Assembly (NCBI GenBank): GCA_001920415.1
Contig: MNJR01000117.1
Coordinates: forward strand, 1-43,408
Source of the DNA: Acidobacteria bacterium 13_1_20CM_3_53_8
GTDB taxonomy: Bacteria; Acidobacteriota; Blastocatellia; Pyrinomonadales; Pyrinomonadaceae
DNA length: 43,408 nucleotides
Direction: 5' to 3'
Numbering within the stretch: the first letter of the stretch is position 1; each line of letters begins with the position of its first letter. The notes below the pieces were generated by a model. It searched no databases and was not told the origin of the DNA. It saw only the letters and a program-made list of their open reading frames with translations. The position numbers and the translations under genes were made by a program. Shown here piece by piece: positions 12,496-39,399 of this stretch.

Positions 12496-12900
12496 ATGAC
12501 GCGAACGAGCAAACGTCGCTCTGCACGCCAGCGCTCACTTGAAGAAGTGCTCGCCGAGCGTTTGCGCTCGCGCGCAGTCGAAGACGCAAAGTTTCGCGCA
12601 CGCCAGGCGCAAGGGAAGCTACGACGCTTCGTCACTGCAACCTTTCGCAAGGAAGAGGTCATAGAAAAGCTTGCGCTCCGAAGAGGCGAGTGTAACCGAT
12701 GCGGCGCATGTTGCGAGATTCTTTTCAAGTGTCCGTTCCTGAAGAAACAGACGGACGGCACGACCTCGTGCGGTATATACGAAGACAGACCCAACCAGTG
12801 CCGCCTCTTCCCTATGGAGCAACGCGACCTAGCAGAAGTACGCGGCACATGCAGCTTTTACTTCATCGAAAAACCGGTCAAGCTTGAGAAGGCAAGCTGA
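12496..12900 (+). CDS. YkgJ-family cysteine-cluster protein
   Basis: This 134-residue protein has the CxxCxxCC signature: CNRCGACC at residues 66-73, with further Cys at 79, 92 (SCGIY) and 102 (NQCRLFP). This pattern defines the YkgJ/CxxCxxCC family, proposed to bind zinc or an iron-sulfur cluster; its biochemical role is not established. The first 60 residues are very basic and helical (RSARQRSLEEVLAERLRSRA). No ribosome site is seen because the hairpin of repeat family D ends at the start codon. The exact start is therefore less certain than the family. Confidence 0.85.
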   Translation: MTRTSKRRSARQRSLEEVLAERLRSRAVEDAKFRARQAQGKLRRFVTATFRKEEVIEKLALRRGECNRCGACCEILFKCPFLKKQTDGTTSCGIYEDRPNQCRLFPMEQRDLAEVRGTCSFYFIEKPVKLEKAS

Positions 12901-19552: not shown

Positions 19553-21658
19553 CTACTTCTGCTGTACTCTGACTTCAGCTTGAGCGACTGTCCACTCGTT
19601 GCTAGCATAAGGGGCTAAACTCAATTCGCGTAGGCCGTGGCCCTGGAGCATAATGGCGGCGAAAAGTTCTTCGAGCGGGTCGGACGGTGCGCCGCGCAAT
19701 GCTTGATCTTGCCGTTGCGGCTGATCTAGTGGGAGTAATTCTAGCCAGCGAAAGTTAGACGTGCCAACAGTGGCGAAGACTTTGATAACGTCCGTGCCTT
19801 CTTGATAAAAGCTTGGGAGGCCTGCGCGTAACGGCAATTGAATCGCCTGACCAGAGTCGAGCGGTTCATAGTTAGCAGCGCCAGACGGATAGATTTGGCG
19901 AATAGCCCAGTCGGATTGCAAGTTTAGCACGGTGACGTTAAGTACATGCGTATGTTTATTCTCAATGCGCAGGAAGACCCATTCATCGGCCTTAACTGTC
20001 GGCGGTGACTCATCTGCCGCGAAGGGACGGGGAGAGGGTTTCTCGCCAGGAGTAAAATCTGCCTGCACGCCGACTATCTCAATTGAGATGGCGTGCGCGA
20101 GAGTAGAGTTCCTGTCCCAATTGTCCAATCCTAAAACATTACGGTATCTAGCCAGATGCATCAGACGCTCAATGGTGCGGGCGGGCGCATTATAATCTTC
20201 TACTCTGAGAGTCGGGCGCAGATTAGGAATCTTCTCGCCTAACGGGTCGCAAATCACCAACTGATTAAACAGGTCGACGGTGACAACGAAGTCCGCAGCC
20301 TCTTCATCAGAGGCGAGACCTACAAACCCGTTGCGGTCATGCTTTAACATGCGCTCAACCTCTGCTAGTGCCGCAACGGATTCGGGAGATGGCTCGTCTT
20401 CGGCCTGCTGCTTCAGACGTACCAGGCGTTGCAGCCGGATTGCTCCCAAGTCTACGAGCACGGCCTGATCTCCCTCCTCAATTGGCTCTAGGGTGAATTG
20501 CCTGATGAGCTTGGTACGGCTGCTGGTCGCGCCGAGTTCAACTATCTCGACCAGCGCGACCCGCTTGTCTTCCTGCCTGAAATTTTCGTCACGATTGCGA
20601 TAAATAGCAAACTGCGCAACTTTGCTCACGCCCTGAGACTGCCCAGCGTTCAGAATGATCTCCTGCCCGTCGGGCCCAACGCTCAACACGACGGCAGCAT
20701 AAGAAGGTTCCACCAATTCGCTGCCGAATATTACACGGTTGCGCTCTCCTTGCAGTTGCGGTGTCTGATCCGCGAACTGGCTGTGGACTTTGGCGAGCAC
20801 TCGGTCGTAGACCTGTTTATAAGTGAGTTCCCGGTCTAGCTGTTTGAGCGTGTCGAGCAGCCAGTAGGTTAGAACGCCGTTCTTGCGTCGGCCGTCAAAA
20901 GCGAACTCGTGCGCGTATTCAGATGCCCGGCAAGCGGACAGCAGGACATAACCCTTTGGCTCTAAAAGCCACCCGCCCTCGGCCTCGAAAGCGCGCCCGC
21001 CCGTATTCGATAGTGCCAGCCACGTCGCGGCCAACTCTTCATCGGAGGCAACGATTGTCGGCATTTGCGGGAAGATTGTATTAATAATGCCTATGCTTCG
21101 GACGCCGATATCATTCAAACCGCGCGTTGCGCTCCCGGCATGGCAACTGTCAAGCACGACTGTGACAATCTGCTTTTTGTTAACCAACAACCGAAGCAGG
21201 TGGGCTAATTCAAAGTCTCGTATATAATGGTCTTCCGTATTACTAATATCCATCGGCACGAGCACCTCATCGAACCCATCACCGCCTTTAATCGTCTGAA
21301 ATTGCGGTGGTGTCCGCACGCGTCCCCCGTGTCCAGAGTAATGTATGTAAACTTGATCGCCGGGCTGACCGATTTCGTGAAGCTTTTTGAAGGCCGCGAC
21401 AATGTTCTCTTTTGTCGGCCATTGCTGAGGAGGCTCGACCACCTCCTGCGTGCCAGTGTCAGTGGACGTGAGCATGAAGATGTGGTCACGCGGAAGATCT
21501 AGATTGTCCCGCAGGAATTTTTCAACGTTCTTGATGTCGCGCACACAACCCTTCAGGTTCAGGAAGTAGGTGCCATCAGGCAGCGTGTTCGGCAGGTAGT
21601 GGTCAATGCCTATCAAGAGTGCGTAGAGGTTTTGGCTTGCTTGATTGTTGCTGCTCAT
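19553..21658 (-). CDS. Caspase-like (peptidase C14) protein with C-terminal DUF4384-like region
   Basis: This is a 701-residue bacterial metacaspase/orthocaspase. The caspase fold starts at YALLIGIDHY (residues 12-21). The catalytic pair is His110 in YIHYSGHGG and Cys172 in VVLDSCHAGS, the canonical spacing. Two further parts follow: a middle region of unknown fold (about 330-560), and a C-terminal region (about 565-680; VFLRIENKHTHVLNVTVLNL, IYPSGAANYEPLDSGQAIQL) resembling DUF4384 domains often attached to caspases. No signal peptide is seen. It lies last in a minus-strand run after a sigma/anti-sigma pair, 233 bases below the anti-sigma stop, so it may also have its own promoter. Cleavage specificity is probably basic, as for other prokaryotic caspase homologues; this is inference. 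Confidence 0.88.
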   Translation of the reverse strand: MSSNNQASQNLYALLIGIDHYLPNTLPDGTYFLNLKGCVRDIKNVEKFLRDNLDLPRDHIFMLTSTDTGTQEVVEPPQQWPTKENIVAAFKKLHEIGQPGDQVYIHYSGHGGRVRTPPQFQTIKGGDGFDEVLVPMDISNTEDHYIRDFELAHLLRLLVNKKQIVTVVLDSCHAGSATRGLNDIGVRSIGIINTIFPQMPTIVASDEELAATWLALSNTGGRAFEAEGGWLLEPKGYVLLSACRASEYAHEFAFDGRRKNGVLTYWLLDTLKQLDRELTYKQVYDRVLAKVHSQFADQTPQLQGERNRVIFGSELVEPSYAAVVLSVGPDGQEIILNAGQSQGVSKVAQFAIYRNRDENFRQEDKRVALVEIVELGATSSRTKLIRQFTLEPIEEGDQAVLVDLGAIRLQRLVRLKQQAEDEPSPESVAALAEVERMLKHDRNGFVGLASDEEAADFVVTVDLFNQLVICDPLGEKIPNLRPTLRVEDYNAPARTIERLMHLARYRNVLGLDNWDRNSTLAHAISIEIVGVQADFTPGEKPSPRPFAADESPPTVKADEWVFLRIENKHTHVLNVTVLNLQSDWAIRQIYPSGAANYEPLDSGQAIQLPLRAGLPSFYQEGTDVIKVFATVGTSNFRWLELLPLDQPQRQDQALRGAPSDPLEELFAAIMLQGHGLRELSLAPYASNEWTVAQAEVRVQQK

Positions 21659-21891: not shown

Positions 21892-22821
21892 CTAGGTTAC
21901 GCCCGAGACGCGGAAAGTATAATCGGCGATGGCTTCGTATTGTCCGGAGTCCGCAAGCCCGCTCAATTTGAGTTGATAATCACGCCGCTGAAAGAACTTC
22001 GTCGGAACGTTGATGATGACTTGTCTGCCATCGTTTGTATTATTCGCCCTCAATCCGCTGAGCGTAAACACTTCGCCCTCGTCAGTTCGCAGCACCGCTT
22101 GATAGCTACGGTATCCACCAATTACTCCGTTGAGTCGCAACTGCACGACGGATGCTCCAGCGGGGATGGAGAAGCTCTTAGCCTCTCCGACCTCCCTGAC
22201 AAGGACAGGTGCGAGCGTCACAGTGAACATTGGTGAGCGCATGGCAGGCGACGTGTTAACGTTCGACGGCTGGGTGTTGAGTTCAACCAGTTCTTGGTAG
22301 AGTGCATTGCGCGGGTCGTTTCGACGGAGAAGCACTATAAGGAAGAGCATGGTGAGCGCCAGGAGAATGAGCGAGGCTAAGGCCAGCCTTCGAGCCTTCC
22401 ACGCGCGGAGATCCTTGAAGAAGTCGCGGAGACGAGCGAAAGTCTCCTGCGCGGTGCTTGCTGAAGAATATGAATGAGGTGCGAAGTGTTCGTCGGCGCG
22501 CTCGCTGAGCGCTTTGGTGATTCTCAGCTTCTGTACCTGATGAGGTGTCGTCAAGTAATTTTTTGCGAACTTCTCCCGCTCTGACGCAGACAATCTACCG
22601 ACCACGTAATCTTCGATCAGTTCATCCTCGACCATCAAAACGGCGTCTCTGAACACAGGATCGGTGATGAACCGCACCTCGAACTGCTCCCGTTCTGCTT
22701 TATCCAACTCGCCTAGCAGGTATTGCCTAGTGAGTCTCTCTTTTTGCTCAATCTCATTCATCGGATTCATTCTCAGGAGATGAGGCTCAATTACCATGCA
22801 ATTTTCGTCAATCTGTTTCAT
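21892..22821 (-). CDS. Membrane-anchored anti-sigma factor
   Basis: This 309-residue protein overlaps the end of the preceding sigma gene by 14 bases, a layout typical of translational coupling. The N-terminal cytoplasmic part (to about residue 140) is helical and acidic (TRQYLLGELDKAEREQFEVRF, VGRLSASEREKFAKNYL). A single membrane helix lies at about 145-166 (LALASLILLALTMLFLIVLL), followed by an extracytoplasmic beta-rich domain (FTVTLAPVLVREVG to the end). It lacks the HCC zinc motif of classical ZAS anti-sigma factors. The role is inferred mainly from its position and topology. Alternative starts at the internal Met codons of MNPMNEIEQKERL are possible. Confidence 0.75.
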   Translation of the reverse strand: MKQIDENCMVIEPHLLRMNPMNEIEQKERLTRQYLLGELDKAEREQFEVRFITDPVFRDAVLMVEDELIEDYVVGRLSASEREKFAKNYLTTPHQVQKLRITKALSERADEHFAPHSYSSASTAQETFARLRDFFKDLRAWKARRLALASLILLALTMLFLIVLLRRNDPRNALYQELVELNTQPSNVNTSPAMRSPMFTVTLAPVLVREVGEAKSFSIPAGASVVQLRLNGVIGGYRSYQAVLRTDEGEVFTLSGLRANNTNDGRQVIINVPTKFFQRRDYQLKLSGLADSGQYEAIADYTFRVSGVT

Positions 22822-23398
22822 CCGAACCCTGCTGCAGGCATAGCAGCATGCATTTATGAATCCTCATACGCAACCTGTGCATTTTGACGCGCAGTGTGTT
22901 TTGCGTGAGTTTAAGTTGTTGAGCCATCTCCTTCCTGAAGTCTATCTTCCTCTGCTTTGCCTCCTGATAGTAATGTAAAACCAGATCACGATCTGTCTGT
23001 GGCAGTTGCGCTAGACACTTATCGAGACATTCGCACATGCGCTCGCGTTCGTCAGACTCGGTGCCGATGTTATTGTCGGGTGGTGCGGCAATCATATCCG
23101 AAAGGCTCTGGGGAGGATTCTGCCGACCGCTCTCCAGCATTACCTTTTTCGCCACGCCGTAGAAGTAGAGTGCCGGATCGCCCGTATAATTCTCTGTCAG
23201 TTCATCCACTTTCTGATTGACCCGGTTGATCGTTTCGTCTACCAAGTCCTCGGCATTGTCGAAGCCGCGCCACGCGAAGACCTTGATGAGATTTCGGCGG
23301 ATGTCCTCGTACTTCTTTCCCGCCCGCTCACGGTCTGAATCGAACCATGCGAGCAGTTTGTCGAATGCTTCCTGCGTTAATGTCCATTGCTTGCGCAT
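22808..23398 (-). CDS. ECF-type RNA polymerase sigma factor
   Basis: This 196-residue protein has two sigma regions. A divergent region 2 spans about residues 30-100 (NLIKVFAWRGFDNAEDLVDETINRV, DPALYFYGVAKKVM). Region 4, with its helix-turn-helix, spans about 120-190 (CLAQLPQTDRDLVLHYYQE, RKEMAQQLKLTQNTLRVKMHRLRMRI). The C-terminus is Cys-containing (CMLLCLQQG). It is co-transcribed with the overlapping anti-sigma gene and lies 56 bases after the TPR-CHAT gene. Its targets may include the neighbouring protease genes, but I found no convincing shared promoter motif. No clear ribosome site precedes the start; the message even carries CCUCC just before the AUG. Confidence 0.85.
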   Translation of the reverse strand: MRKQWTLTQEAFDKLLAWFDSDRERAGKKYEDIRRNLIKVFAWRGFDNAEDLVDETINRVNQKVDELTENYTGDPALYFYGVAKKVMLESGRQNPPQSLSDMIAAPPDNNIGTESDERERMCECLDKCLAQLPQTDRDLVLHYYQEAKQRKIDFRKEMAQQLKLTQNTLRVKMHRLRMRIHKCMLLCLQQGSDETD

Positions 23399-23454: not shown

Positions 23455-26400
23455 CTATATTCGCTGCCTGCCTAGAATGGAAGACCAACGCCGAAGAGCA
23501 TAGAAGACAACAACTGGCAAAGCAAATATCAGCACCAGCATGACCAGCCCAGCAGTATTTCTACGGGTAGCATGCATAGGTATGATGCTCCCCCGATATT
23601 CGCCTTGTAAGGTGAAAGCCGCCCAGTAGTAAGGCGCTCGCCACCGCTTCTGGCTCAACATCTTCACTTTAGCCTTTTTGAGCGCGGTTGACGGCGGCAG
23701 TCCTTCGCTGAGCATTGCCTCGTAAAAATAGCGCATTAGCTGCGCCGTTGCTTCATCATCCACTTTCCACAGGCTGGCGACGACGCTTTTTGCCCCTGCA
23801 TACATGAAACCCTGCGTCAAGCCTATCAGCCCTTCACCCTTGATCTGCTTCCCTAATGCTGTGTTACAAGCGCTGAGGACAACGAGTTGGGACGAAAGGT
23901 TCAGATTGTAAATGTCGTGCAACTGGAGGAAGCCGTTCTCCAGTCCGCCGCGCTCGTCAATCGTGGAGAGGAGAATGCCTGACAACTCAGGGTGCACACT
24001 GTTGACCAGCCCATGTGTTGCGAAGTGCAGAATGCGATACTGACCTAAATCACCTTTGATGACCAGATCACGCTTCGCCTCAAAGCCCGTTACGATCTTC
24101 ACCGTCCCGTTGGCTGTCGCTGCCCTAATAGCTTCGGCCTCCTCAAGCGTGGCTGGTAGTCGCGCGAAGCTCTCGCCTTCTCGCAGTCCGGCACCACCGC
24201 GTGCGGCGACCATCTCGGCTGGCTCTGCGCTGTCGCTTGAGCCATCTGTCGTACCACCGAATTTTGAGCTCACCCGTGGATCATTCTTTCCGAAGACCGG
24301 GTCGGCTAACACGACGGCGACCCTATCAGACGGTAATTCAACATGGTTGCGTGTCTGTCTGAGAAGGGCGAGCGTTGATGCAGACGGGAGATTGACGACC
24401 TCGTGCCGGAAGATGAGTGGATTTTGATCGGCCTCAGCAGAAGCGCGGTTCTCGCTAGAGACTGAAGGTATCGAGGGGTCTGGCAGAGCATCGAAGGGTA
24501 TATACTGTAGTGCCCCGTCGGCGACGATTAACAGCCGTCTGGACGAAAGCTGTGCTATCACCTGACTGAAGAGCATCTGGCTGAGTTTGGAAGCGATCTG
24601 CCCGTATTCACGATCCGAGGCGTCGACGCGAGCCTTGTAGTCTGCATACGTCTCGTCAGGCTTAGGTTGACGCGCAGTGAGGAGACTGTAAAAATCACGG
24701 GCAGCCTGCTCTATATCTGCTCCTTTCGGCAATTCGTAACTATCAAAGGAGGTCGAGGTTACTGCCCATAGATAGCTTCTCTCATCCCCTAGCATGAACT
24801 CAAGCAGAAGGGTATCATCGCCCTGCAACTCGGCTTGAATATCATTTAGGGATAGTGGTAAAGGCTGTGTGAGAGTCGCGTAGCGCGGGCTCTGTTGCTT
24901 GATGCGTGCCTCTACTTCTTGGTAGACACTGGTTAGCTGGCGAATCTCCTCTTCGACTTCGGATGCTTCTGGGGTCGGGTTATTAGCGTTGAGCAGGCGT
25001 ATCTGGTATTGGGCCTTCGCGGCGAGCATTTCCTGAAGAGATCGCTCGCGTTCCAACAAAGCAGGGTCAACTGCCTGCCGAATGTCCGCATGCGCTTCGT
25101 TTAGCAGTTCGAGCAGTGAGCGAGCGCGTGCACGCTCGCTTACATTCAGAGCAGCAGTGGCAAAGCCCGCGTCCGGTCTTTGCTTGTGCATCTGCATTAG
25201 CAGATCTACGTAAACATCGTAGCGCTCGTGGACGGCGGCGAAATACGACGTGCGCAACTCCTGATTAGTAACCATTATCCGCAGCGATTCGGTGATCCGA
25301 ATCGTCTCCTCAATGTCAGCGAGCGCTTCCTGTAAGAGCCCGCTGCTGTGCTCTGCACGCGCAATGTTGTAGAGCATGGAAGCTTCGCCGCTACGGTCGC
25401 CTGCCGCCCTGCTGAACAGCAACGCACGCTTGTAGAAGATGAGTGCGCGTCGAGCGTCACCCGCCGCCTGATGGATGTAGCCAATGCTGTTGAGAGCGAG
25501 AGCCTGTCCTCTTCGATCTGCAATCTCCTGAAAAAGCTTCAACACCTTATTGTACTGAGCCAGCGCTTTCTGCCTGTCACCGTGCAGGCCATGAATGGTA
25601 GCCACGTTAACCAGCGCGTAACCTTCGGCGCGTCGTTTACCCATCTCTCGGCACAGCCGTATGGTTTGCTCGTAATAGGCGAGTGCGTTTTCATCGTCTC
25701 CAAGCGTATGATATACCCTGCCTATGTAATATCTAGTGACGGATTCGGAGTCACGGTTACCGTTCTTTTGATAATAGTTAAGCGCGAGTAAGTAATTGTC
25801 GAGCGCTACCTGTGGCTCGTTCAAATCTTCGTAAGCTTGGCCGATGCTGTTAAGCGCTACCCCAGTGCCCTGGCGATCGCCAATCGCGCGGAAGAGCGCC
25901 AGCGCCTCGCCGTGATTGTCGAGCGCTTTCTGCTGTTCACCGAGAAAAGCATGAACCGTCCCGAGCGCTGTTAGCGAGAGCGCCTCTAATCTGCGGTCAG
26001 CGACAGTCCGCACGAGCGTGAGCGTCTGCCCGAAGTGGTCAAGCGCTTTGGGTAGATCGCCTGAGTCTGAGTAGGTATAACCTAAATTGAGATGTGCCAG
26101 CGCTTGGCCTCTGCGGTCGGGTATTTGCGACCAGATGGCTAGGGCACGGTTGAAATTATTCAGCGCCCCCCTAAAATCTCCCAGCGCGTAATTCACCTCG
26201 CCAATGTTGTTGAGAGCATGTGCTTCGTACCAGTCTGCTTCGTTCACGGCGCTGCGTCGTCGCCGCTGACGGAGAGTACTGAGGACAGTTTCAAAATACC
26301 GGATGGCCTTTTGGTTCTCGCCTAGATAAACATACGCGTAACCGACGTTGTTGAGCGCCAGCAGTTCCCCGCTTTGATCCCCTCCTGCACGGCTCGCATT

Positions 26401-27129
26401 GAGCGCTAACTGAAAGGAATCGAGTGCGCGCTGGTATTCGCCGAGCGTGAAATAAATGTCGCCGCTGCCTTCCATCGCCGCGGATGCCTCACGTAATCGT
26501 GAGATTGCTCGCCAGCGTTTCCATGCAGCAGCGTATTTTTCGAGCGCCTCACGTAAAGAGTTCTCTTGCCAATCACCGCGCAGCCTTTCTGCCTCAACGA
26601 AAGATGATTGCGCGCTCTCCTCCAGCCTGTCACGAACATTTGCGCTGCGTACCTCTACAATCTCCAGAGCAACAGGTCTCTCAACCGCATCGTTCTCAAA
26701 CGACTTAACCTCAAGGTTGTAAGCCCCAGATGATTCCGCTATGAACATGAACGACAGCGTCCCGTAACCCCTGCCAGTAAACTCGTCCAGCCTTCTACCA
26801 TCAGGGCTGAAGAGCGTCACTGCTATGTCCAGGTCGCCTTTGGTGACGAGCGTGCGGACAAGCTGACCTGCATGTAGGCTCATCTTGTAGCTACGGGACT
26901 TGCCGCTGCTCAACCCTATAGTTACAGGTGAGCCGGGCGTAAGCTCTAAGCTCGCAATGACATCAGATTGATTAAGAGAGGCGACCGCTCGGCGTGCGCA
27001 CGCGCCTAGTATGGCTTGAATGAGACAAACGCATATGAGCAGTTGCAGGATCGAGTTTGCCGGGCATAGATAAATGTACGGTTTCGAGGAAATGGCCCTG
27101 AGCAAATGTACACTTGAGATTTTAATCAT
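23455..27129 (-). CDS. TPR-CHAT protease, predicted lipoprotein
   Basis: This is a protein of about 1224 residues. It has an N-terminal hydrophobic stretch with a lipobox-like LGAC (LLICVCLIQAILGAC), a bacterial pre-peptidase-like beta domain (to about residue 165; SYKMSLHAGQLVRTLV), about ten tetratricopeptide repeats (roughly 190-630), a helical linker, and a CHAT protease domain. The CHAT catalytic pair is His near 1039 (RILHFATHGLV) and Cys near 1088 (LVVLSACNTALG). A further membrane helix lies near the C-terminus (about 1193-1211; LVMLVLIFALPVVVFYAL). CHAT domains are caspase/separase relatives; TPRs usually bind a partner or activator. ATG 27129 is chosen to give a compact signal; the frame is open to 27174. 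It is first in the run with the sigma, anti-sigma and caspase genes. Confidence 0.88.
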   Translation of the reverse strand: MIKISSVHLLRAISSKPYIYLCPANSILQLLICVCLIQAILGACARRAVASLNQSDVIASLELTPGSPVTIGLSSGKSRSYKMSLHAGQLVRTLVTKGDLDIAVTLFSPDGRRLDEFTGRGYGTLSFMFIAESSGAYNLEVKSFENDAVERPVALEIVEVRSANVRDRLEESAQSSFVEAERLRGDWQENSLREALEKYAAAWKRWRAISRLREASAAMEGSGDIYFTLGEYQRALDSFQLALNASRAGGDQSGELLALNNVGYAYVYLGENQKAIRYFETVLSTLRQRRRRSAVNEADWYEAHALNNIGEVNYALGDFRGALNNFNRALAIWSQIPDRRGQALAHLNLGYTYSDSGDLPKALDHFGQTLTLVRTVADRRLEALSLTALGTVHAFLGEQQKALDNHGEALALFRAIGDRQGTGVALNSIGQAYEDLNEPQVALDNYLLALNYYQKNGNRDSESVTRYYIGRVYHTLGDDENALAYYEQTIRLCREMGKRRAEGYALVNVATIHGLHGDRQKALAQYNKVLKLFQEIADRRGQALALNSIGYIHQAAGDARRALIFYKRALLFSRAAGDRSGEASMLYNIARAEHSSGLLQEALADIEETIRITESLRIMVTNQELRTSYFAAVHERYDVYVDLLMQMHKQRPDAGFATAALNVSERARARSLLELLNEAHADIRQAVDPALLERERSLQEMLAAKAQYQIRLLNANNPTPEASEVEEEIRQLTSVYQEVEARIKQQSPRYATLTQPLPLSLNDIQAELQGDDTLLLEFMLGDERSYLWAVTSTSFDSYELPKGADIEQAARDFYSLLTARQPKPDETYADYKARVDASDREYGQIASKLSQMLFSQVIAQLSSRRLLIVADGALQYIPFDALPDPSIPSVSSENRASAEADQNPLIFRHEVVNLPSASTLALLRQTRNHVELPSDRVAVVLADPVFGKNDPRVSSKFGGTTDGSSDSAEPAEMVAARGGAGLREGESFARLPATLEEAEAIRAATANGTVKIVTGFEAKRDLVIKGDLGQYRILHFATHGLVNSVHPELSGILLSTIDERGGLENGFLQLHDIYNLNLSSQLVVLSACNTALGKQIKGEGLIGLTQGFMYAGAKSVVASLWKVDDEATAQLMRYFYEAMLSEGLPPSTALKKAKVKMLSQKRWRAPYYWAAFTLQGEYRGSIIPMHATRRNTAGLVMLVLIFALPVVVFYALRRWSSILGRQRI

Positions 27130-27606
27130 AAGCGCGGCGCGAGTTACTTTGACAAAGCCACTGCCGAAATTCATCTGGCAGAACGAAGCGCAGCCGAAAG
27201 AGTTAGCGGATCAATTTCAGCACGCCTCTGGCGAGGAGCGTTGGCAAGGAATGCAAGCGATTCATCAGAGCGGGGCCGTCCAGGCTTAGCGTTAAGACTT
27301 CATTTGCTGCTAGAGGAGATGTACCGAGTCTATCTGCTATCAACGGCCTCTGACACGTCGGGTAGCTCATAACGAGCTTTGGCTTGAAGATGCTCTGAGA
27401 AGAACCTTGCCAAGTCGGGATTATTAAATATATCTGTCTCGAAATCAATACGCTAATAATCAGCTAACGCGACTCCAGCGATAACCGATCATCTAAATTC
27501 ACCGGTTGGACAAGTGTGGACACACTCCTTTGATGGCTGCCCGGCAAGCGCCCGCTCCGATGCTTGGCTGTTACATACTCTCTTGCGTCAGAGATGTGTT
27601 GATAAC
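27130..27606. other. Intergenic stretch upstream of the TPR-CHAT gene
   Basis: Nothing convincing is encoded here. An 81-codon minus-strand frame (27203-27448) has no ribosome site and no recognisable composition. The promoter of the minus-strand TPR-CHAT run should lie here. Confidence 0.4.
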
Positions 27607-27609
27607 TTG

Positions 27610-27666
27610 CCCTCGCTTCTGCCAAAACAAAAAAGGATAGCCAGAAAGGCTATCCTCAAGCGAGGG
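27610..27666 (-). terminator. Nested perfect stem-loops with T tract on the minus strand
   Basis: The inner stem GGATAGCC (27635-27642) pairs perfectly with GGCTATCC (27648-27655) around a 5-base loop. Read on the minus strand it is followed at once by TTTTTTGTTTT, a textbook intrinsic terminator. A second perfect pair, CCCTCGCTT (27610-27618) and AAGCGAGGG (27658-27666), encloses it and could act as a competing structure. The nearest gene it would end is the small Gly-rich gene at 27827-28066. Confidence 0.8.
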
Positions 27667-27724: not shown

Positions 27725-27809
27725 GAGAGCGACCCATGTTCAGAGTAGAGCTTAAAAGGCTGCGTAGGGTAAGCAGGCTGGAAGCGTCAACTCTAAACGG
27801 GTCGCTCTC
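27725..27809 (-). other. 85-base stem-loop in the 3' region of the small Gly-rich gene
   Basis: GAGAGCGACCC (27725-27735) pairs perfectly with GGGTCGCTCTC (27799-27809), 11 bases. Inside, AGAGT (27742-27746) can pair with ACTCT (27790-27794). It starts 18 bases below the stop codon of the small gene and lies between it and the terminator at 27610-27666. It may be a stabilising 3' element or a separate small RNA. Confidence 0.55.
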
Positions 27810-27826: not shown

Positions 27827-28066
27827 TTACCTATCCCCGCCTGCGGACTTCTCATCCTCATTTATCTCGCCGGGCTCTTTAGAGGCATCATGGCTTCCCC
27901 CGGCACCACCACTCGCGCCCTTTGTCTGCAAATTTCCGCCAGCTCTAGTATTACTATGTTCGCCCGGCGGAGGTGGAGTAGGTTGGCTACCGCCTTTAGT
28001 TTGCAGATTACCGCCTGCCCTATTATCGATTTCCTGGTTTGCTTGGTTCTCAACTTTGTCTGCCAT
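27827..28066 (-). CDS. Small disordered protein with two copies of the decapeptide RAGGNLQTKG
   Basis: This is a 79-residue, highly hydrophilic, Gly/Asn/Pro-rich protein with no Cys and no hydrophobic core. RAGGNLQTKG occurs twice (about residues 16-25 and 41-50), separated by a linker with PTPPPP. Seven of the ten codons differ synonymously between the copies, so the peptide sequence itself seems to be kept. AAAGGAGAG lies about 10 bases before the ATG, an excellent ribosome site. Two strong stem-loops follow the gene. It lies alone between the TPR-CHAT gene and the large gene at 28538. No family is recognised. A peptide precursor, a protease substrate or a binding scaffold are all open possibilities. 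Confidence 0.7.
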   Translation of the reverse strand: MADKVENQANQEIDNRAGGNLQTKGGSQPTPPPPGEHSNTRAGGNLQTKGASGGAGGSHDASKEPGEINEDEKSAGGDR

Positions 28067-28537
28067 ATCTCATCTCTCCTTTGTTGATTGATAAATTCAA
28101 TGAAGCTTTCCCGAGCAAGGCGACCGATAGAAGGAGGAATCCGGCATCAGGAGCAGCCGCTTTTGCTGCGAGTGCTGCGACGAATTCAGCTTCCTCTATA
28201 TCTAACTGAGGTCGTCCTTCACCCACTAATGCTCGCAGCCCTCAAAGCATTACAACTCGTCAGGCTATTGGTGAGCGCGCATGAAACGATTGTCAGATAG
28301 TAGTGCGCCTCTAATTTCAGTTGTGCTCGTAAATTAGAGCCATGAATCACCTCAACTTTATTAAGGAAGAGCAGCGCGAGTCGCTTAGACAAATCACGCC
28401 AGCACCGAACAATCATTACCGGCTAAATGTAACGTTTTAAGGAGAAAAGCATAGTGAGGAGATGGAAGATTTCGCTCGCGAAGATGCCCAGGCGGGAGTC
28501 TTCCTCGTAAAAAGATGGTGCGGAGTGAAGCGCACCG
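28067..28537. other. Divergent control region between the small Gly-rich gene and the large plus-strand operon
   Basis: No supported long gene is present. A perfect 9-base inverted repeat, CTCTAATTT (28309-28317) and AAATTAGAG (28331-28339), could be an operator or a stem. AAGGAG at 28438-28443 precedes a possible 28-residue leader frame starting at ATG 28462 and ending at 28548, overlapping the start of the next gene. The leader is only a suggestion. Confidence 0.4.
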
Positions 28538-33439: not shown

Positions 33440-34213
33440 TTAATCCCGCCCTTTTTTCTTGGACAACTTATAACCGTCTTCGACAGCGCGCGTTAACTCA
33501 TCTGCCCATTGTTTGATCTTATCAGTCTTCCGTTTCGGTTCAATTTTCCGGCCAACAGGTTTATTTGCTTTTGATTGATTTGGTCTGGGAGCAAGGGAAA
33601 GACGCTTAACCTGCTTCACAAAAGGCTCATTAGGATCAATGCCATCTTTGACAAGCATGGCGAGGGACATATTTGTATACTCTTCTTCCATCCCCACTAA
33701 GGTGCTTGCCATTTTCATGGAGGCTTTCGCCGACAGCCCATTAGCAAACGCTTTATAGAAAGAGGTCGCGAAAGTAATAGCCTGATTATCTGGAATTGCC
33801 TGGTCGGTTCCGATGGTGTAATCAGATAAAGCGCGAAGCAACTCTGCCTGATTCTGTGTATAGCATGAGTTCAAGAAGATAAGACGAATATCCCAATCAA
33901 GACAGCTCAGCAGGTCAGCCAGAGCTTTCATGTCAACCGTCACGCTCTTCCCCAGATCATCCTCAAGAACAATTCCATGACGGTTTCCGTGACCGCAAAA
34001 GTGAATGATCTGCGGCCGGTCTATAAGTAAGGCATCAATAAAGTCCTTCAATCTCGCCGCGAAGCGGGGTACCAGCAGTTTGATGCAATCCGACGGTCTT
34101 CCTGTATCAACTACGTTACTAATCTCGCGGAATTCTTTGTCCAAACGTAACAGCGGGAGGCCGGATGAGGAAGGATTCGCGGAAATAAAAAGCATTTTTA
34201 TTTTGTCGGTCAT
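33440..34213 (-). CDS. Compact CHAT-family cysteine protease
   Basis: This 257-residue protein consists mostly of a CHAT protease domain. The first strand is KMLFISANPSSSGLPLLRLDKEFREI. The catalytic His75 lies in QIIHFCGHGNRHGIVLED, Cys117 in LIFLNSCYTQNQAELL, and AITFATSFYKAFANGLS follows as usual in short CHAT proteins. The C-terminal 50 or so residues are a strongly basic tail (KANKPVGRKIEPKRKTDKIK). ATG 34213 with AAAGG just upstream is preferred; the frame is open to a TTG at 34243. It is the only minus-strand gene in the island and is divergent from the zinc-ribbon/E1 run, with a shared control region of about 300 bases. Its substrate is unknown. Confidence 0.85.
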   Translation of the reverse strand: MTDKIKMLFISANPSSSGLPLLRLDKEFREISNVVDTGRPSDCIKLLVPRFAARLKDFIDALLIDRPQIIHFCGHGNRHGIVLEDDLGKSVTVDMKALADLLSCLDWDIRLIFLNSCYTQNQAELLRALSDYTIGTDQAIPDNQAITFATSFYKAFANGLSAKASMKMASTLVGMEEEYTNMSLAMLVKDGIDPNEPFVKQVKRLSLAPRPNQSKANKPVGRKIEPKRKTDKIKQWADELTRAVEDGYKLSKKKGRD

Positions 34214-34517
34214 GCGTCTTTGCCTTTGAAATTCGCTCACCAACTACCTTGGCGAGGGTTGCAATTATAGCTCATTGCTGACAGCTCGAAGAAGCTTTCT
34301 CGACATCGAGGTGTAATGTTTTGACGTGTCTGCGCATGAGAGATGAAGAGGCAGCATGGAGAGAACGGTACGAGAGGCTCTAAGGACAGAAGTTCTCCTG
34401 CTTTCGCCTCTTCACTCAGCGATTCAACCGAGGGGCGTGCAGGCGGATGCTCTCCCCAGCGCTGCATCAGCAGCTACTGATTTCAGTTGAGAGAAGAGTT
34501 CTAAACACTGCACGGGT
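34214..34517. other. Divergent control region between CHAT and the E1 operon
   Basis: No supported gene is present; a 76-codon minus-strand frame lacks a ribosome site. Short inverted repeats are seen, for example GAGAAC...GTTCTC near 34360-34395 and CTCGACATCGAG near 34300. The region must hold promoters in both directions. I cannot place them firmly. Confidence 0.35.
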
Positions 34518-34832
34518 ATGAGCGGATACTTTCGGCGGATAGTTGAGGCGGTTCGTAACTGGCTCAACAGTGGTAAGGAAGAGAATCACGGCGACCACGG
34601 CATGAGCCGAACGTCCGAGGCCAGCGCCAGGAGAAGCAGGAAAAAGTTTTCAATATTGCGAGAGAGTTTCGGCGGCGGAGAAATTGCCAGCGTTCGCTCA
34701 ACCCGGCGGCGCTTCAATACGGCAGGCGCAACACGCCCCAAGCAATGTCCCAGATGTCGAACGCGCGACGACGTAACGAGGGTCTCAAAGAGTCGTTGGA
34801 TGTGCAAGGCGTGTGAGCATCAGTGGAGATGA
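34518..34832 (+). CDS. Small basic zinc-ribbon protein preceding E1
   Basis: This 104-residue protein has a basic, probably disordered N-terminal part (RRSRKKFSILRES) and a C-terminal zinc ribbon with CPRC (about residues 76-79) and CKAC (about 96-99), the latter in SRWMCKACEHQW. Its stop codon lies 4 bases before the ATG of the E1 gene, so the two should be translationally coupled. The ribosome site is weak. The zinc ribbon could bind nucleic acid or a protein partner. No specific family is recognised. Confidence 0.6.
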   Translation: MSGYFRRIVEAVRNWLNSGKEENHGDHGMSRTSEASARRSRKKFSILRESFGGGEIASVRSTRRRFNTAGATRPKQCPRCRTRDDVTRVSKSRWMCKACEHQWR

Positions 34833-34836
34833 ATGG

Positions 34837-36087
34837 ATGAGCAGGTTTGTTATCAGCCACATATTCGACCCCGACAGCAATCCTTTCGACAGGCAGGAGC
34901 GAATCTCCTGGTGGAGTCAGGAAAATATCAGCCGGGCCAACGTTATGGTCGCTGGGGCGGGCGCTATCGGCAACGAGACCTTGAAGAACCTGGCGCTGCT
35001 CGGCTTCCGAAACTTCTTCATACTGGATTTCGATACTATCTCGACTTCTAACTTGAGTCGCACATTGTTGTTCCGTCCTGAAGATAAGGGGCGAAAAAAG
35101 GCTGAAGTCGCCGCAGAGCGTACGCGCGAGCTTTGCCTCGCTGATAACCCGCGCATTGATTGGTTTCATGGGGACGTAGTCTGGGACCTGGGCACCGGAG
35201 CTTTTCGCGCGATGGACGTTGTGCTTGGCTGCTTAGATAACGCCGAAACGCGATTTGCGATTAACCGGCAATGCTGGCTCGCGCAGACTCCCTGGGTTGA
35301 TGCAGGTATCTACGAGTTGGCCGGAGCCGTCAGCCTCTTTATTCCGGGCAAGCCGCCTTGCTATCAATGCGGCGCGACGAAAGAGCAGCTAGAGGCGGCG
35401 CGCCTGCGCTATTCCTGCGATGACTTCAAGCGCGTCCTGAGTGAACAGGGGAAAGTGGCGACCGTGCAGGTCGCCTCGGCCATAGCTTCCGCGATTCAGG
35501 TGCAGGAGGCCGTGAAGCTCATCTGCGGGCAAGAGGTTGCCGCCGGAAAGAAAATATATTTTCAGGGGAAGAACAATGATTTCAGTCTCTTGAACTATCC
35601 AGTCAACCCGCAATGCACGGCGCACGCGACATACACGGAAGTCACTCCCATCCAGATGAGCTATGAAGCGATGCTTAGAGATTTTTTGGAATTCGTCTCA
35701 CGTGAGGAGCTTTCGGGCAAGGGGGCGACACTCGATTTTCGCGGCGACAGAACTTTTGTCGTGTCCGCACCGTGCCGCCGCCTCTGCGGTCGCTCTGTAG
35801 AGCTTCTCAAGCCAAACTTCCGCGTCTTCGAACATGATGTCATCTGCGCGGACTGTAACGAAAGGGATGATGGTGCGGTCGTCGCTGACGGCGCAACGAA
35901 GCCCAACCAGGTAGCGCCCGGCACCTTCTCGCTGGAGGAAACAGAAGAGCGCATTCTCAGAATGACTTTGCGAGAGCTAGGCGTCCCGCCGCTGCACATC
36001 GTCGCAGTCGCTGACAGAAGCAAGGCTTATCGCTATTACGAGCTTTCGGCTGACGGGCACTCCCTTTTTCCGTCCAGATTCTCGTAG
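34837..36087 (+). CDS. ThiF/E1-like ubiquitin-activating enzyme
   Basis: This 416-residue protein has a ThiF/MoeB/E1-type adenylation domain. Seen are the nucleotide loop VAGAGAIGNE (residues 38-47), the acidic residues in FILDFDTIS (Asp64, Asp66), the arginine motif SNLSRTLLF (Arg75), and GCLDNAETRFAINRQCW. A CYQC knuckle (175-178) resembles the zinc site of such enzymes; its partners may be CRRLC (313-317) or CADC (337-340). Cys194 in YSCDDF or Cys260 could be the thioester residue; this cannot be decided here. The C-terminal 150 residues are an extension of unknown fold. ATG 34837 has GGAGA 8 bases upstream; the frame is open to GTG 34813. The enzyme should activate the ubiquitin-like protein encoded next. 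Confidence 0.9.
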   Translation: MSRFVISHIFDPDSNPFDRQERISWWSQENISRANVMVAGAGAIGNETLKNLALLGFRNFFILDFDTISTSNLSRTLLFRPEDKGRKKAEVAAERTRELCLADNPRIDWFHGDVVWDLGTGAFRAMDVVLGCLDNAETRFAINRQCWLAQTPWVDAGIYELAGAVSLFIPGKPPCYQCGATKEQLEAARLRYSCDDFKRVLSEQGKVATVQVASAIASAIQVQEAVKLICGQEVAAGKKIYFQGKNNDFSLLNYPVNPQCTAHATYTEVTPIQMSYEAMLRDFLEFVSREELSGKGATLDFRGDRTFVVSAPCRRLCGRSVELLKPNFRVFEHDVICADCNERDDGAVVADGATKPNQVAPGTFSLEETEERILRMTLRELGVPPLHIVAVADRSKAYRYYELSADGHSLFPSRFS

Positions 36088-36145
36088 GAGGCGATTGATT
36101 CGATGGTGATTTCAAACCTTATTACTACCAAGCGAGGAGAGCTTT

Positions 36146-36406
36146 ATGCCTGATGTAAATGTGAATTTCATGCACCCGACCGATGGCAGAGTAATAACCG
36201 TCACGGTTGACGACACCATGACGGCGCAAGAGGCCATAGGCGAATTGCTGGCTAACAATTTCGTCCCGCCCCACGATCAAGGCTACCAGCTCTCGGTCGT
36301 AGAGAGCGGCAACATCATCGCAGATAACCAGACGATGGCTGAAGCGGGCGTCAGGAACAGCGCGAAGATTAAAGTCATTCCAATTACTCAAGCCGGAGAG
36401 CAGTAA
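36146..36406 (+). CDS. Ubiquitin-like (beta-grasp) modifier candidate
   Basis: This 86-residue protein fits a YukD/ubiquitin-like beta-grasp fold: strands DVNVNFMHP and VITVTVDD, helix TAQEAIGELLANNF, strands YQLSVVESGNII and loop DNQTMAEAGVRNSAKIKVIPIT. It ends in TQAGEQ. There is no diglycine; a single Gly lies two residues before the end, so a JAMM peptidase could expose it by removing Glu-Gln. GAGGAGAG just before the ATG is a strong ribosome site. It lies between E1 and E2 genes in the same direction, which is the main reason to call it a conjugated modifier. Confidence 0.85.
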   Translation: MPDVNVNFMHPTDGRVITVTVDDTMTAQEAIGELLANNFVPPHDQGYQLSVVESGNIIADNQTMAEAGVRNSAKIKVIPITQAGEQ

Positions 36407-36417
36407 AGGGAAAAGAG

Positions 36418-36957
36418 ATGCCTACACCACAGGAGATAAGAAACATCCGCTTGAAGAGCGATTACAAGGAGATGTGCAATATCAGGGGGCCTATCATCTC
36501 CTGGCGTGCGATACGCGGTACTCCGCCATACGTGGAAGCATACATGCTAAAGGTAAACGTCAGGAGCATAGTAGGTCAGAGGCCGGACTACCGAGACCAG
36601 CATGATATATATGTCGAGATGCCGTCCAACTACCCATCCGCCCCGCCGAAAGCCGAAATGGTCAGCGATACCGTCATCTTTCACCCGAACTGGTGGCCCG
36701 ATAAGCGCTGGTGTTATGGCACATGGGATATGTCGGAAGGGCTGGGGTATTACGTTATACGCATGATTCGTACGCTCCAGTTCGATCCTATCATCACGGA
36801 CGAGAATAGCTCCGCGAACCCTGCGGCCAAGGACTGGTACTTAGCAAACAGGAGGCTCGGAATCTTTCCTTGCGATACGCAAGTTCTGCCAGACCCTGAG
36901 CGATCCAAAAACGAGATACAGCCCAAAGTCAGGAAGAAGTTCGAGTTTCACGGATGA
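36418..36957 (+). CDS. E2-like ubiquitin-conjugating enzyme
   Basis: This 179-residue protein keeps the E2 core in order: IYVEMPSNYPSAPPKAEM (the strand and loop before the active site), the HPN motif (His89-Pro90-Asn91) and Cys99 in HPNWWPDKRWCYG. The distance from HPN to Cys is the same as in eukaryotic E2 enzymes, so the protein should carry the modifier as a thioester. Downstream are VIRMIRTLQFDP and NPAAKDWYLANR, the usual C-terminal helices. It starts 11 bases after the modifier gene with ribosome site AGGGAAAAG. The C-terminus is basic (KVRKKFEFHG). Confidence 0.9.
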   Translation: MPTPQEIRNIRLKSDYKEMCNIRGPIISWRAIRGTPPYVEAYMLKVNVRSIVGQRPDYRDQHDIYVEMPSNYPSAPPKAEMVSDTVIFHPNWWPDKRWCYGTWDMSEGLGYYVIRMIRTLQFDPIITDENSSANPAAKDWYLANRRLGIFPCDTQVLPDPERSKNEIQPKVRKKFEFHG

Positions 36958-37003
36958 AGGTCATGCCTTGTCGGTTAATGCTCGCTTAAAGCAGATGTGA
37001 AGT

Positions 37004-37861
37004 ATGGAGCGAAGAGTCATGGGTAAAAGGTTCGAGATCATCAATGCTGTGCCACCCTACCAGCCTTCCGAGCGAGCGGAGCCGGTCTTAAAGCTGATAG
37101 AGAATCTCGCCTCCAGCTACGACAAGGATTGCGTCGAGAGCCACAAGCTCTATATCACTCTGGGGGCGATGGAGCAGATTGCGCATCACATCGGCTGGGG
37201 CGAGTACACCAAGGAGAATCTGAATGAACAGGGAGGGATTCTGCTCGGCGAGGTTTTTACGGACAGCACTAGACAGATCGTGTATGGCGTGGTGAGCGCA
37301 GCTATTGCAGGCGCATCGGCCAAAGGTTCTAGCGCTTCCCTTGAGATGTCTCACAGAACATGGAAGGAGATGCTTGATGCCACCGAAGCTATAAAGGCCA
37401 GAGAGCCGGATAGGGGGCTACAAGTTATAGGCTGGTATCATACTCATCCTAATAATCTCTCTGTGTTCATGTCCGGGACGGATCGTGCAACACAAAGCCG
37501 GCTTTTCTCGCGCGACTGGCAGTTCGCTCTGGTGCTGAATCCGCATATCCGAGATTGGCGGGCATTCTTCGGGCGCGATGCTACGCAGTGTAGAGGCTTT
37601 GTGGCCGAAGAGATTGAGCAGCGATTGCTGGAGCCGACCGAGTCGTTTGACAAAGGCAGCGAGAACGTTGACGAAGGGCCATCGGATGATGACGAGGGCA
37701 ACGAATTCGCCGCCATTGGTAGAATCTCAATGAAGATTGAGACTCAGACTGCGCGAAGCCTGAAACTGCTATGGCTCATCCTGGCGCTTTTCCTATTCGT
37801 CATTATCCTCGAAGCGGTCATCATTGGCTTACAGATTCTCGCCATCTTCCTGCGGCGGTAA
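37004..37861 (+). CDS. JAB/JAMM deubiquitinase-like metalloprotease with C-terminal membrane anchor
   Basis: This 285-residue protein has a complete JAMM motif: Glu75 in NEQGGILLGE, then GWYHTHPNNLSVFMSGTD with His146, His148, Ser157 and Asp160 (HxH, eight residues, SxxD). Such enzymes mature ubiquitin-like proteins and remove them from targets. An acidic linker (about 215-235, EGPSDDDEGNE) leads to a membrane segment at about 253-283 (LLWLILALFLFVIILEAVIIG), long enough to be a tightly packed hairpin or one tilted helix. The protease should therefore work on the cytoplasmic face of the membrane. It lies 46 bases after E2. Met6 (ATG 37019) is an alternative start. Confidence 0.9.
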   Translation: MERRVMGKRFEIINAVPPYQPSERAEPVLKLIENLASSYDKDCVESHKLYITLGAMEQIAHHIGWGEYTKENLNEQGGILLGEVFTDSTRQIVYGVVSAAIAGASAKGSSASLEMSHRTWKEMLDATEAIKAREPDRGLQVIGWYHTHPNNLSVFMSGTDRATQSRLFSRDWQFALVLNPHIRDWRAFFGRDATQCRGFVAEEIEQRLLEPTESFDKGSENVDEGPSDDDEGNEFAAIGRISMKIETQTARSLKLLWLILALFLFVIILEAVIIGLQILAIFLRR

Positions 37862-37926: not shown

Positions 37927-38355
37927 ATGAAATATTATGTCACTGTTCTGGACAGTAAGAGGCACGACGCATTCCTGCGGCAGCAGCGCAAGGACCCTGT
38001 GACTAAGGAGATTTTTAAAGCCGGAGACCGCGTAGTCATGTGCGCAGGGACGGGTTGTCAATCTGCTTTCCTGGAAACAAGCTGGCTCTTTCGCGGCCAG
38101 AGACACTGTGGACAGTCTGGAACGCTAAAGAGCCTCGAAGTTGATGATACCGAGAAGCGCTTCTCAAAAAGGGCTGCACATGACTATGCGCACAACTTTT
38201 CGGAGACGGGAGCGGAGAACAGTTCGCCATTCCCTAAAGAGCAGAGCGCAGAACGCACGCCCGAACGGGGCGCTGTCAGGTTAAGGGATGTTCCGCTGAG
38301 ACTCATGGACATCGCCGTTCAACTTAACCCGATAATTAAACTCCGCGACATTTAG
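37927..38355 (+). CDS. RING-like protein, possible E3
   Basis: This 142-residue protein has KDPVTKEIFKAGDRVVMCAG followed by TGCQSAFLETSWLF and RHCGQSGTL. Cys39, Cys44, His60 and Cys61 could hold one zinc ion. The line of DPVT, GDRVVMC, aromatic-Trp and HCG recalls the prokaryotic RING/treble-clef domains known to occur beside bacterial E1/E2/JAB genes, but the first Cys pair is missing, so it would be a reduced form. The rest (70-142) is polar and disordered with a basic end. It stands between the JAMM and DUF4407 genes with a GAGAGGG ribosome site. An E3 or adaptor role is inference. Confidence 0.55.
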   Translation: MKYYVTVLDSKRHDAFLRQQRKDPVTKEIFKAGDRVVMCAGTGCQSAFLETSWLFRGQRHCGQSGTLKSLEVDDTEKRFSKRAAHDYAHNFSETGAENSSPFPKEQSAERTPERGAVRLRDVPLRLMDIAVQLNPIIKLRDI

Positions 38356-38385
38356 GAGCTAAGAACCAGATCAAGAGGAAAGGCA

Positions 38386-39399
38386 ATGAATATAATTAGC
38401 AGATTCTTCCAGTTTCTATCCAAGACTGACCGCCACATCATTTCTCATTGCACGGACTACACCGCTAAGACGCAGACTGCCTATGGAGTCTTCGTTCTAC
38501 TCACAGGCGCTTTTGCTTTTCTCTCCTGCATGTACGCGGTGAATTCGACCTTCAAGTCGCTCAAGGTCGCTATCCCGGTGGCGCTCTTGTACAGCACCGT
38601 CATCATCTTTATTGATCGCGAGATCGTCTCTGCGCAGACAAAGTGGGCGGTCTTTCCGCGCTTCTTTCTGGCCCTTGCCATCGGCCTGGTAATCTCGGTG
38701 CCACTTGAGATGCGCTTATTCTCCGACAGAATCGAGCAGGAAATTAAGAGGCTCAGCAAGCTGGAAAACCAGCAGGCTTTCGACGACAGGCGCAATGGCG
38801 AAAATGCTTACCAGAAAAAGATTGACGACCTTCAAAATGAGATTAAAAGCTACCGCCAAAATATCAACGACGCCATGACGGCCATGCAGGATGAGGTCGT
38901 AGGGGCAGTCCGAGCGGGCAAGGCTAGGACAGGCAAGGCTGGCAGAGGCGCTGCCTATGAAGAGGCGGACGAGCAGAAGAGACTGAACGAAGGGCTGCTA
39001 CAAGCCGCAGAAAATGAGTTGCGAATTTTAACTCAGCAACGCGACGAGGTACAGGCAAAAATTGATAGGGATTTTGGGGCACGAGCGATCAATCCGGTTG
39101 ACGACTTCCTGGCACGCTATGAGGCAATGGAACACGTCAAACAGAGTTCCTCTTCCTCTTTCTACATGTCCTGGGGGCTAAGGGCGCTAATCATACTGAT
39201 AGAGATCATCCCGGCGCTGATGAAACTTTTCCAGCGAGATAACGAGTACAGCGCGATTTTAGAGGCTCTACGCAGGCGGAATCTCACTCGCATTTATGCA
39301 ATCGCCAATGACCATATTGATCAGATACTAGCCCAACCCAACCTTGTCCCGACGCCGCCCCTTTTACAGCAATTGGAGCAAGATCCGCTGACGAGGTAA
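38386..39399 (+). CDS. DUF4407 membrane protein with cytoplasmic coiled coil
   Basis: This 337-residue protein matches the DUF4407 pattern. Three membrane helices lie in the first 110 residues (about 30-54 VFVLLTGAFAFLSCMYAV; 60-80 VAIPVALLYSTVIIFIDRE; 86-108 FFLALAIGLVISVPLEM). A long charged coiled coil follows at about 112-230 (RIEQEIKRLSKLENQ), then a fourth helix near 263-285 (LRALIILIEIIPALMKLF) and a cytoplasmic tail. GAGGAAAGG precedes the ATG. The function of DUF4407 is unknown. Here it closes the E1-Ubl-E2-JAMM run, 30 bases after the RING-like gene, so it may be a membrane scaffold or effector of the system. It is followed at once by a transposase remnant. Confidence 0.85.
   Translation: MNIISRFFQFLSKTDRHIISHCTDYTAKTQTAYGVFVLLTGAFAFLSCMYAVNSTFKSLKVAIPVALLYSTVIIFIDREIVSAQTKWAVFPRFFLALAIGLVISVPLEMRLFSDRIEQEIKRLSKLENQQAFDDRRNGENAYQKKIDDLQNEIKSYRQNINDAMTAMQDEVVGAVRAGKARTGKAGRGAAYEEADEQKRLNEGLLQAAENELRILTQQRDEVQAKIDRDFGARAINPVDDFLARYEAMEHVKQSSSSSFYMSWGLRALIILIEIIPALMKLFQRDNEYSAILEALRRRNLTRIYAIANDHIDQILAQPNLVPTPPLLQQLEQDPLTR

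Follow-up and report, generated by a model that had tools for sequence, protein, structure and literature searches.

A small repeat-motif protein of sigma factor-CHAT protease loci in Acidobacteriota: a candidate protease client

In a 43,408-nucleotide stretch of the Acidobacteria bacterium 13_1_20CM_3_53_8 genome (contig MNJR01000117.1; here, "the window"), we characterized a small gene, P0002, that lies between genes for two CHAT proteases. The best reading of the data is that its product belongs to an uncatalogued family of small disordered proteins that form a standing part of loci encoding a sigma factor, an anti-sigma-like protein, a TPR-CHAT protease, and a second caspase-fold protease, the last of these usually a short CHAT. 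Judging from sequence, we put at slightly below even the chance that P0002 is a dedicated client of this CHAT pair, acting as a multi-site substrate or a competitive inhibitor in a sigma-factor switch whose logic would resemble that of Craspase and Csx30.

The P0002 gene and its neighborhood

The open reading frame (ORF) at positions 27827 to 28066 was recovered on the minus strand, which the initial annotation had left unstated; it reads from 28066 to 27827 and encodes 79 amino acids (aa; MADKVENQ...SAGGDR). The decapeptide RAGGNLQTKG is present twice, as described previously, at residues 16 to 25 (positions 27992 to 28021, minus strand) and, 25 residues later, at residues 41 to 50 (27917 to 27946, minus strand). 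In a codon comparison of the two 30-nt copies, 3 of 10 codons were identical and the other 7 differed by one base each, all synonymously. If seven substitutions fell at random within these 30 nt, all would be silent together with an exact probability of 1.5e-5; a simulation with a transition weight of 4 gave 5.25e-5. Seven synonymous and no amino acid differences indicate that the frame is translated and the peptide constrained, so the earlier claim of a peptide kept by selection stands. A good ribosome site was also confirmed: the Shine-Dalgarno-like sequence AAAGGAGAG (28074 to 28082, minus strand) lies 7 nt before the ATG. The two stem-loops noted 3' of the gene proved to be, on the same strand, a near-perfect 85-nt hairpin after the stop codon (27725 to 27809) and an intrinsic terminator beyond it, with a 10-pair stem and a T run (27633 to 27657). 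The 206-nt stretch containing both folded with a z score of -6.3, and none of 200 shuffles was as low. The 85-nt hairpin had no second copy in its own genome, where the only other match above noise was its own reverse complement. P0002 is predicted to have its own transcription unit, and the synonymous differences between copies, the ribosome site, and the terminator support it as a real gene.

The P0002 protein had no Pfam, NCBIfam, or PADLOC match. Hydrophobic residues make up 8% of the chain, its net charge is -4, and inspection of the translation found no hydrophobic run at the N terminus. A single-sequence AlphaFold2 model was of low confidence (mean pLDDT, 64.4; pTM, 0.20) and contained one helix, at residues 3 to 18. 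P0002 is apparently intrinsically disordered.

The position of the gene between CHAT genes was borne out by Pfam. Downstream on the same strand, 653 nt from the P0002 ORF, is a 1,239-aa TPR-CHAT protease (23455 to 27174; Pfam CHAT E value, 1.1e-71, with TPR matches). Three further minus-strand genes follow: a 196-aa ECF-type sigma factor (22808 to 23398; TIGR02937, 45.1 bits against a cut-off of 42.9), a 309-aa anti-sigma-like protein (21892 to 22821; NF052375 at 26 bits and zf-HC2 at 16.9 bits, both below cut-off), and a 701-aa caspase (Peptidase_C14) protein (19553 to 21658; Pfam E value, 4.1e-21; PADLOC caspase E value, 7.3e-41). On the other side is the short CHAT protease, a 267-aa minus-strand ORF (33440 to 34243, likely start at 34213; Pfam CHAT E value, 5.4e-9; PADLOC SAVED_CHAT E value, 5.1e-10) in which His75 and Cys117 were invariant in a three-row alignment. 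Between P0002 and the short CHAT gene lies a plus-strand two-gene unit, divergent from P0002 (28538 to 33376), that also occurs beside two counterparts (L056 and L059, below). Its products of 866 and 744 aa had no Pfam matches, and the 866-aa protein is rare (4 of 396 phylum genomes).

Other features of the neighborhood were also observed. The uncatalogued 866/744-aa unit recurs (window, L056, L057, L058, L059, and L065) with exchangeable effectors: a short CHAT, a TIR domain (fused, L057), or a caspase (L058, by eye). One 744-aa homologue matched DO-GTPase2, and another matched Band_7. Beside the CHAT genes, positions 34518 to 37861 hold a compact ubiquitin-like set consisting of a zinc ribbon protein, an E1 (ThiF E value, 8.9e-47), a ubiquitin-like protein (36146 to 36406) that ends in AGEQ without a terminal GG, an E2-like protein below the Pfam cut-off, and a JAB peptidase; this set was not seen in the gene lists of L056, L059, or L065. 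A DUF4407 membrane protein (37927 to 39399; Pfam E value, 8.3e-52) recurs in L059 (7944 to 9380) and L065 (17052 to 18218; both by eye), accompanied in the window and in L059 (by eye) by a protein of 123 to 142 aa.

Counterparts and a shared motif

The initial annotation proposed searching for homologues carrying the decapeptide. No further instance of the literal RAGGNLQTKG turned up in the collections searched; of 396 phylum genomes, a DNA pattern for GGNLQTKG matched the window genome alone. Ten counterparts with a looser motif were found by gene order. When P0002 was searched against 119 family genomes, 51 genomes matched at an E value of ≤1, the best outside the window being 0.002; 17 of 33 loci were inspected and judged to be chance, as was the one tblastn match left from the contig collection, a 15-residue stretch (PPPPGEHSN) inside a long unrelated Massilia ORF (L033). 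The L070 and L078 counterparts had no tblastn match in plasmids, and the L070 counterpart had none among PDB sequences. A profile of four counterparts of the DWR type (below) recovered its four seeds in 162 class genomes (E values of ≤3.8e-22) and, beyond them, nothing better than 0.002; eight weak places checked by regular expression held no family-like ORF. Ten family members tested matched no Pfam family at an E value of ≤1 (no Pup model among them) and no RiPP or NCBIfam model.

The counterparts (L056, L059, L070, L071, L075, L076, L078, L079, L128, and L179) are ribosome-site-led ORFs of low hydrophobicity, 42 to 121 aa long, in CHAT or caspase loci. Searches with the 866- and 744-aa genes identified L056, L057, L058, and L059, and a profile of the 744-aa family added L065. 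In L059, the place of P0002, between an 852-aa homologue and the TPR-CHAT gene, is taken by an ORF of 68 aa (...HAGGGTFRIGTKDDIRASGGAAGG...VRDGTK) preceded by a ribosome site of the same type; as in the window, the surroundings include sigma, 852/767-aa, short CHAT, and DUF4407 genes. L056 holds a 68-aa ORF just 5' of a short CHAT gene and an 865/829-aa pair, with neither sigma nor TPR-CHAT on the stretch examined; its two copies, LVGGNEDTRS and RVGGCEDSRN, are 24 residues apart. No peptide ORF was found in L057 (TIR effector) or in L058 (where, by eye, a caspase replaces the CHAT).

A scan of short-CHAT loci yielded L070 (RDGSLDRVRG, RDGSLDKTRA, and RSGSLDDVRG), L071 (RDGTLDRARG, RDGILEKARG, and RDGVLDSARG), and four loci with similar peptides, L075, L076, L078, and L079 (RMGTLIDWRE, RVGTIEDWRE, RVGMLEDWRE, and RAGIIEDWRA), most of which end in LRDGS or LRDGR. 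The peptide ORFs of L070, L075, L076, L078, and L079 lie 5' of a TPR-CHAT gene, and that of L071 is divergent from the sigma gene on a short contig without TPR-CHAT. L128, with a weak short-CHAT match and a caspase, encodes RGGGDVVAKT in an ORF 1,747 nt out. L179, from the held-out control described below, encodes RGGAAGEDRS; a caspase gene lies next to it in divergent orientation, and the stretch examined holds no short CHAT. The chance of the motif match in L179, given the composition of its peptide, is 0.06. Positions 12582 to 18044 of L179 hold a caspase, two TIR proteins, and other genes beside the peptide/TPR-CHAT/sigma module. In L087, a Shine-Dalgarno-led 53-aa ORF occupies the equivalent place without the exact motif. 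Three other candidates were rejected: a basic repeat ORF in L084 (1051 to 1506) with CRISPR-like genes (by eye), no exact motif, and no sigma gene, and, as chance, a 33-aa motif match in L169 and an R-rich one in L176.

RAGGNLQTKG had been described as old and kept. What is common to these loci is the motif unit, and its shared form is a degenerate ten-residue R-x-G-x5-[K/R], which all copies fit except the first in L056, which starts with L. The window, L056, and L059 peptides held 4 matches against 0.20 expected (1 of 20,000 shuffles as high), and six other peptides held 12 against 1.55 expected (0 of 20,000), figures that are descriptive and no independent test, because the motif was framed on the data used for the first tests, and that include two overlapping matches not taken as copies, RGGAPTKKK (L071) and REGSIKAGK (L075). 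The motif is loose: a small ORF matched it by mechanical rule in 5 of 39 loci that had the sigma gene only. Copies are spaced by 25 residues in the window, 24 in L056, 23 and 24 in L070, and 24 and 24 in L071. A C-terminal RDG half-motif follows the main motif by 23 to 26 residues in L059, L075, L076, L078, and L079 (counted in L075 from the first match, R32) and by 31 in L070. Linkers between copies vary freely. The copies within L070 and within L071 use different synonymous codons at 3 to 8 of 10 positions, like those of the window. In ten loci examined, the motif was absent from all proteins other than the peptides themselves. Pairwise similarity of P0002 to the counterparts was not significant (shuffle P of 0.061 for L059, 0.16 for L056, 0.063 for L128, and 0.42 for L071); the kinship therefore rests on motif, anatomy, and position, and common descent, as judged from these sequences, is not proven.

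Strong hairpin-plus-T terminators lie directly 3' of the peptide gene in some counterparts. Upstream of the peptide genes, a shared promoter-like dyad was not above shuffles. The hexamer CACTCA, often inside a small inverted repeat, occurs within ~180 nt upstream in 6 of 11 (L056, L070, L071, L079, L128, and L087), a count reached by 3 of 300 shuffle sets; it is a lead to a possible operator or promoter element.

Association with a CHAT locus type

The peptides mark one locus type, with an ECF sigma factor, an anti-sigma-like protein, a TPR-CHAT, and a second, short CHAT. The class sample comprised 162 genomes with 32 short-CHAT places at an E value of ≤1e-12, all of which were examined. The sigma family was present on the stretch examined at 10 of these (window, L059, L070, L071, L075, L076, L078, L079, L087, and L128), 9 of which have a motif ORF. 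Among the 22 places without sigma, which include L077, where no short-CHAT ORF was recovered, L056 has a motif ORF and L169 has the match judged to be chance. Applied mechanically to 86 loci, the motif rule found an ORF in 9 of 11 loci with both short CHAT and sigma, 5 of 39 with sigma only, 2 of 30 with short CHAT only, and 1 of 6 with neither (Fisher test for loci with both, 3.5e-5 versus sigma only and 7.7e-6 versus short CHAT only). The five sigma-only matches, in GTG-started or R-rich ORFs, were taken for chance.

A second rule made no use of the motif: a Shine-Dalgarno-led ATG ORF of 40 to 130 aa, less than 27% hydrophobic, on the same strand and within 2.2 kb 5' of TPR-CHAT. P0002 qualifies under it. 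Where short CHAT and sigma were both present, 9 of 10 loci held such a peptide-like ORF. The comparison group, sigma-only loci for which no less than 1 kb of 5' sequence was available, gave 0 of 18 (Fisher test, 1.4e-6; L096 was dropped for lack of sequence). The link to CHAT genes implied by the initial annotation is thus nonrandom. The 2.2-kb width was chosen knowing that the L128 ORF lies far out; at 1 kb, the counts were 8 of 10 versus 0 of 18. As a held-out control, with the rule fixed beforehand, we took 20 further sigma loci, 5 of which had a suitable TPR-CHAT and enough 5' sequence (L187 was dropped). One of the five, L179, had an ORF, and it carries the motif. Pooled with this control, the counts were 9 of 10 versus 1 of 23 (P = 2.5e-6).

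A sample of 307 genomes, which counts the in-class rows, gave 11 short-CHAT places outside the class, spread over 10 loci; none had such an ORF. A sigma gene was present in one of these loci, L165, which has neither peptide ORF nor motif. A tree built from 31 short CHATs placed 9 of the 10 loci that carry a peptide in one 15-row group, the support for which (92/88) is under the tool's starred level. The peptide label changed 5 times on this tree compared with 8.5 on shuffling (3 of 500 shuffles as low). The short CHATs of L065 and L068 belong to the peptide-bearing group, yet neither locus has a peptide ORF. Two other short-CHAT loci, L069 and L072, which are among the 22 places without sigma, were uninformative, as their contigs end just upstream in sequence resembling a TPR-CHAT C terminus.

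Proposed role and known systems

A disordered chain, a repeated motif, its own transcription unit, and two adjacent caspase-fold proteases together make P0002 most simply a candidate protease client. On the mechanism that we propose, P0002 would offer ten-residue linear motifs (one to three copies per family member), ~24 residues apart on a flexible chain, that may dock into the short CHAT or the TPR-CHAT protease and would most likely be cut there at a basic residue. Specificity for a basic P1 residue is known among clan CD proteases, and the basic residues at motif positions 1 and 9 suit such an enzyme. P0002 could then serve in one of three ways: as a substrate with several sites, the cutting of which signals that the protease is active; as a competitive inhibitor that keeps the protease in check, pending an upstream signal, and has to be consumed first; or as a linker between the two CHAT proteins. 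Output would run through the anti-sigma/sigma pair, in a direction of regulation that we can only infer. A substrate role appears the most plausible from these sequence features, followed by an inhibitory or docking role. More speculatively, and with a probability that we would put low, fast-diverging disordered repeat peptides could be the native currency of bacterial CHAT/caspase proteases, written in locus-specific dialects (RAGGNLQTKG, RVGTIEDWRE, or RDGSLDRVRG) repeated about every 24 residues, with the proteases releasing or binding the units and so controlling a sigma factor and a response of cell suicide or defense.

The same features bear on other explanations. Several evenly spaced copies would suit multivalent docking, in which the motif is never cut and acts on the CHAT proteases or the TPR domain purely by docking or inhibition, in the manner of a decoy, a chaperone, or an antitoxin-like guard. 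The absence of the motif from other proteins in ten loci, which leaves no obvious mimicry of a neighboring cleavage site, and the strong terminators right after some counterparts, which suit a separately expressed buffer protein, point the same way. However, the basic residues at both motif ends suit a basic-P1 clan CD protease, and we regard docking without cleavage as rather unlikely. The initial annotation also raised a signal precursor or RiPP-like peptide, with the motif copies as core or signal peptides freed by the proteases. Tandem conserved cores with freely varying linkers do resemble multi-core precursors, and the window encodes an E1/ThiF enzyme. But this sole nearby candidate modifying enzyme sits in the ubiquitin-like set with an E2, a JAB peptidase, and a ubiquitin-like protein, and none of ten family members tested matched a RiPP or NCBIfam model; the RiPP suggestion thus found no positive support. 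The exported-signal form is weakened by the lack of a hydrophobic N-terminal run in a protein only 8% hydrophobic overall, and a precursor of either kind is improbable.

A nucleic acid-binding RG-type disordered protein, unrelated to proteolysis, would accord with the R-x-G motifs and with the basic charge of several counterparts (+7 to +13 in L071, L075, L076, L078, and L079). P0002 (-4), L056 (-5), and L128 (-3) are acidic and keep the motif nonetheless, which makes this explanation quite improbable. Proximity to the ubiquitin-like enzymes at 34518 to 37861 and the AGG sequences of P0002 (internal RAGG and C-terminal ...AGGDR, from which the JAB peptidase could trim the DR) would fit a ubiquitin- or Pup-like modifier or a substrate of those enzymes. 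That enzyme set has its own ubiquitin-like protein at 36146 to 36406, the counterparts end in RDGS, RDGR, DGTK, or similar and not in GG-x, and no Pup model was among the Pfam matches; we consider a modifier role highly improbable. Pup and ubiquitin-like tags end in GG-Q/E or GG, whereas P0002 ends in GGDR.

The preferred reading of P0002 as a protease client has practical consequences. Few systems have an identified native substrate for a bacterial CHAT or caspase-like protease. In this locus type, a small candidate partner whose gene adjoins that of the protease, and whose repeated linear motif is plain to see, can be tested directly. Homology searches miss partners of this kind: their sequence diverges, but the motif, the size, the ribosome site, and the position of the gene are retained. 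R-x-G-x5-[K/R] with its ~24-residue spacing offers a handle to find more.

Several known systems resemble this module in part. In heterocyst-forming cyanobacteria, the CHAT protein HetF acts in one pathway with PatS, a small peptide bearing an R-G-type pentapeptide. The pairing of a CHAT protein with a motif peptide is similar. Closer in gene content is Craspase, the type III-E system of Cas7-11, TPR-CHAT (Csx29), Csx30, and CASP-sigma, in which, according to PMC10028731, TPR-CHAT cuts Csx30 and thereby frees an ECF sigma factor. The window likewise combines TPR-CHAT with an ECF sigma factor and a small protein as its candidate partner, and its sigma factor matches the NCBIfam type III-E sigma model below cut-off (27.6 bits; cut-off, 100). 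Unlike Csx30, a two-domain protein of 565 residues in the same source, P0002 has 79 aa, is apparently disordered, and bears repeats; the window also differs in that its anti-sigma-like protein is encoded separately and a second CHAT is present, and no match to Cas7-11 or another Cas protein was found among the window proteins scanned. CHAT cascades or protease-anti-sigma-sigma logic are also described, in PMC11229360, for SAVED-CHAT and CalpL/CalpT/CalpS of type III CRISPR. The match of the window short CHAT to PADLOC SAVED_CHAT (E value, 5.1e-10) spans only model positions 332 to 451 of 498, and no SAVED domain was matched in Pfam and PADLOC scans. The NTP-dependent conflict systems with effector-associated domains (Kaur et al. 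2020, 2021) combine constant genes with exchangeable effectors, as does the 866/744-aa pair with its short CHAT, TIR, or caspase; in their accessible text, "CHAT" is absent from PMC7159879 and occurs three times in PMC8195603, and no small motif peptide is described. Across the CHAT literature covered (Craspase, SAVED-CHAT/CalpL, and conflict systems, with subscription papers mostly outside its scope), no such peptide family was found. The module type is known in kind, and its peptide component appears to be new.
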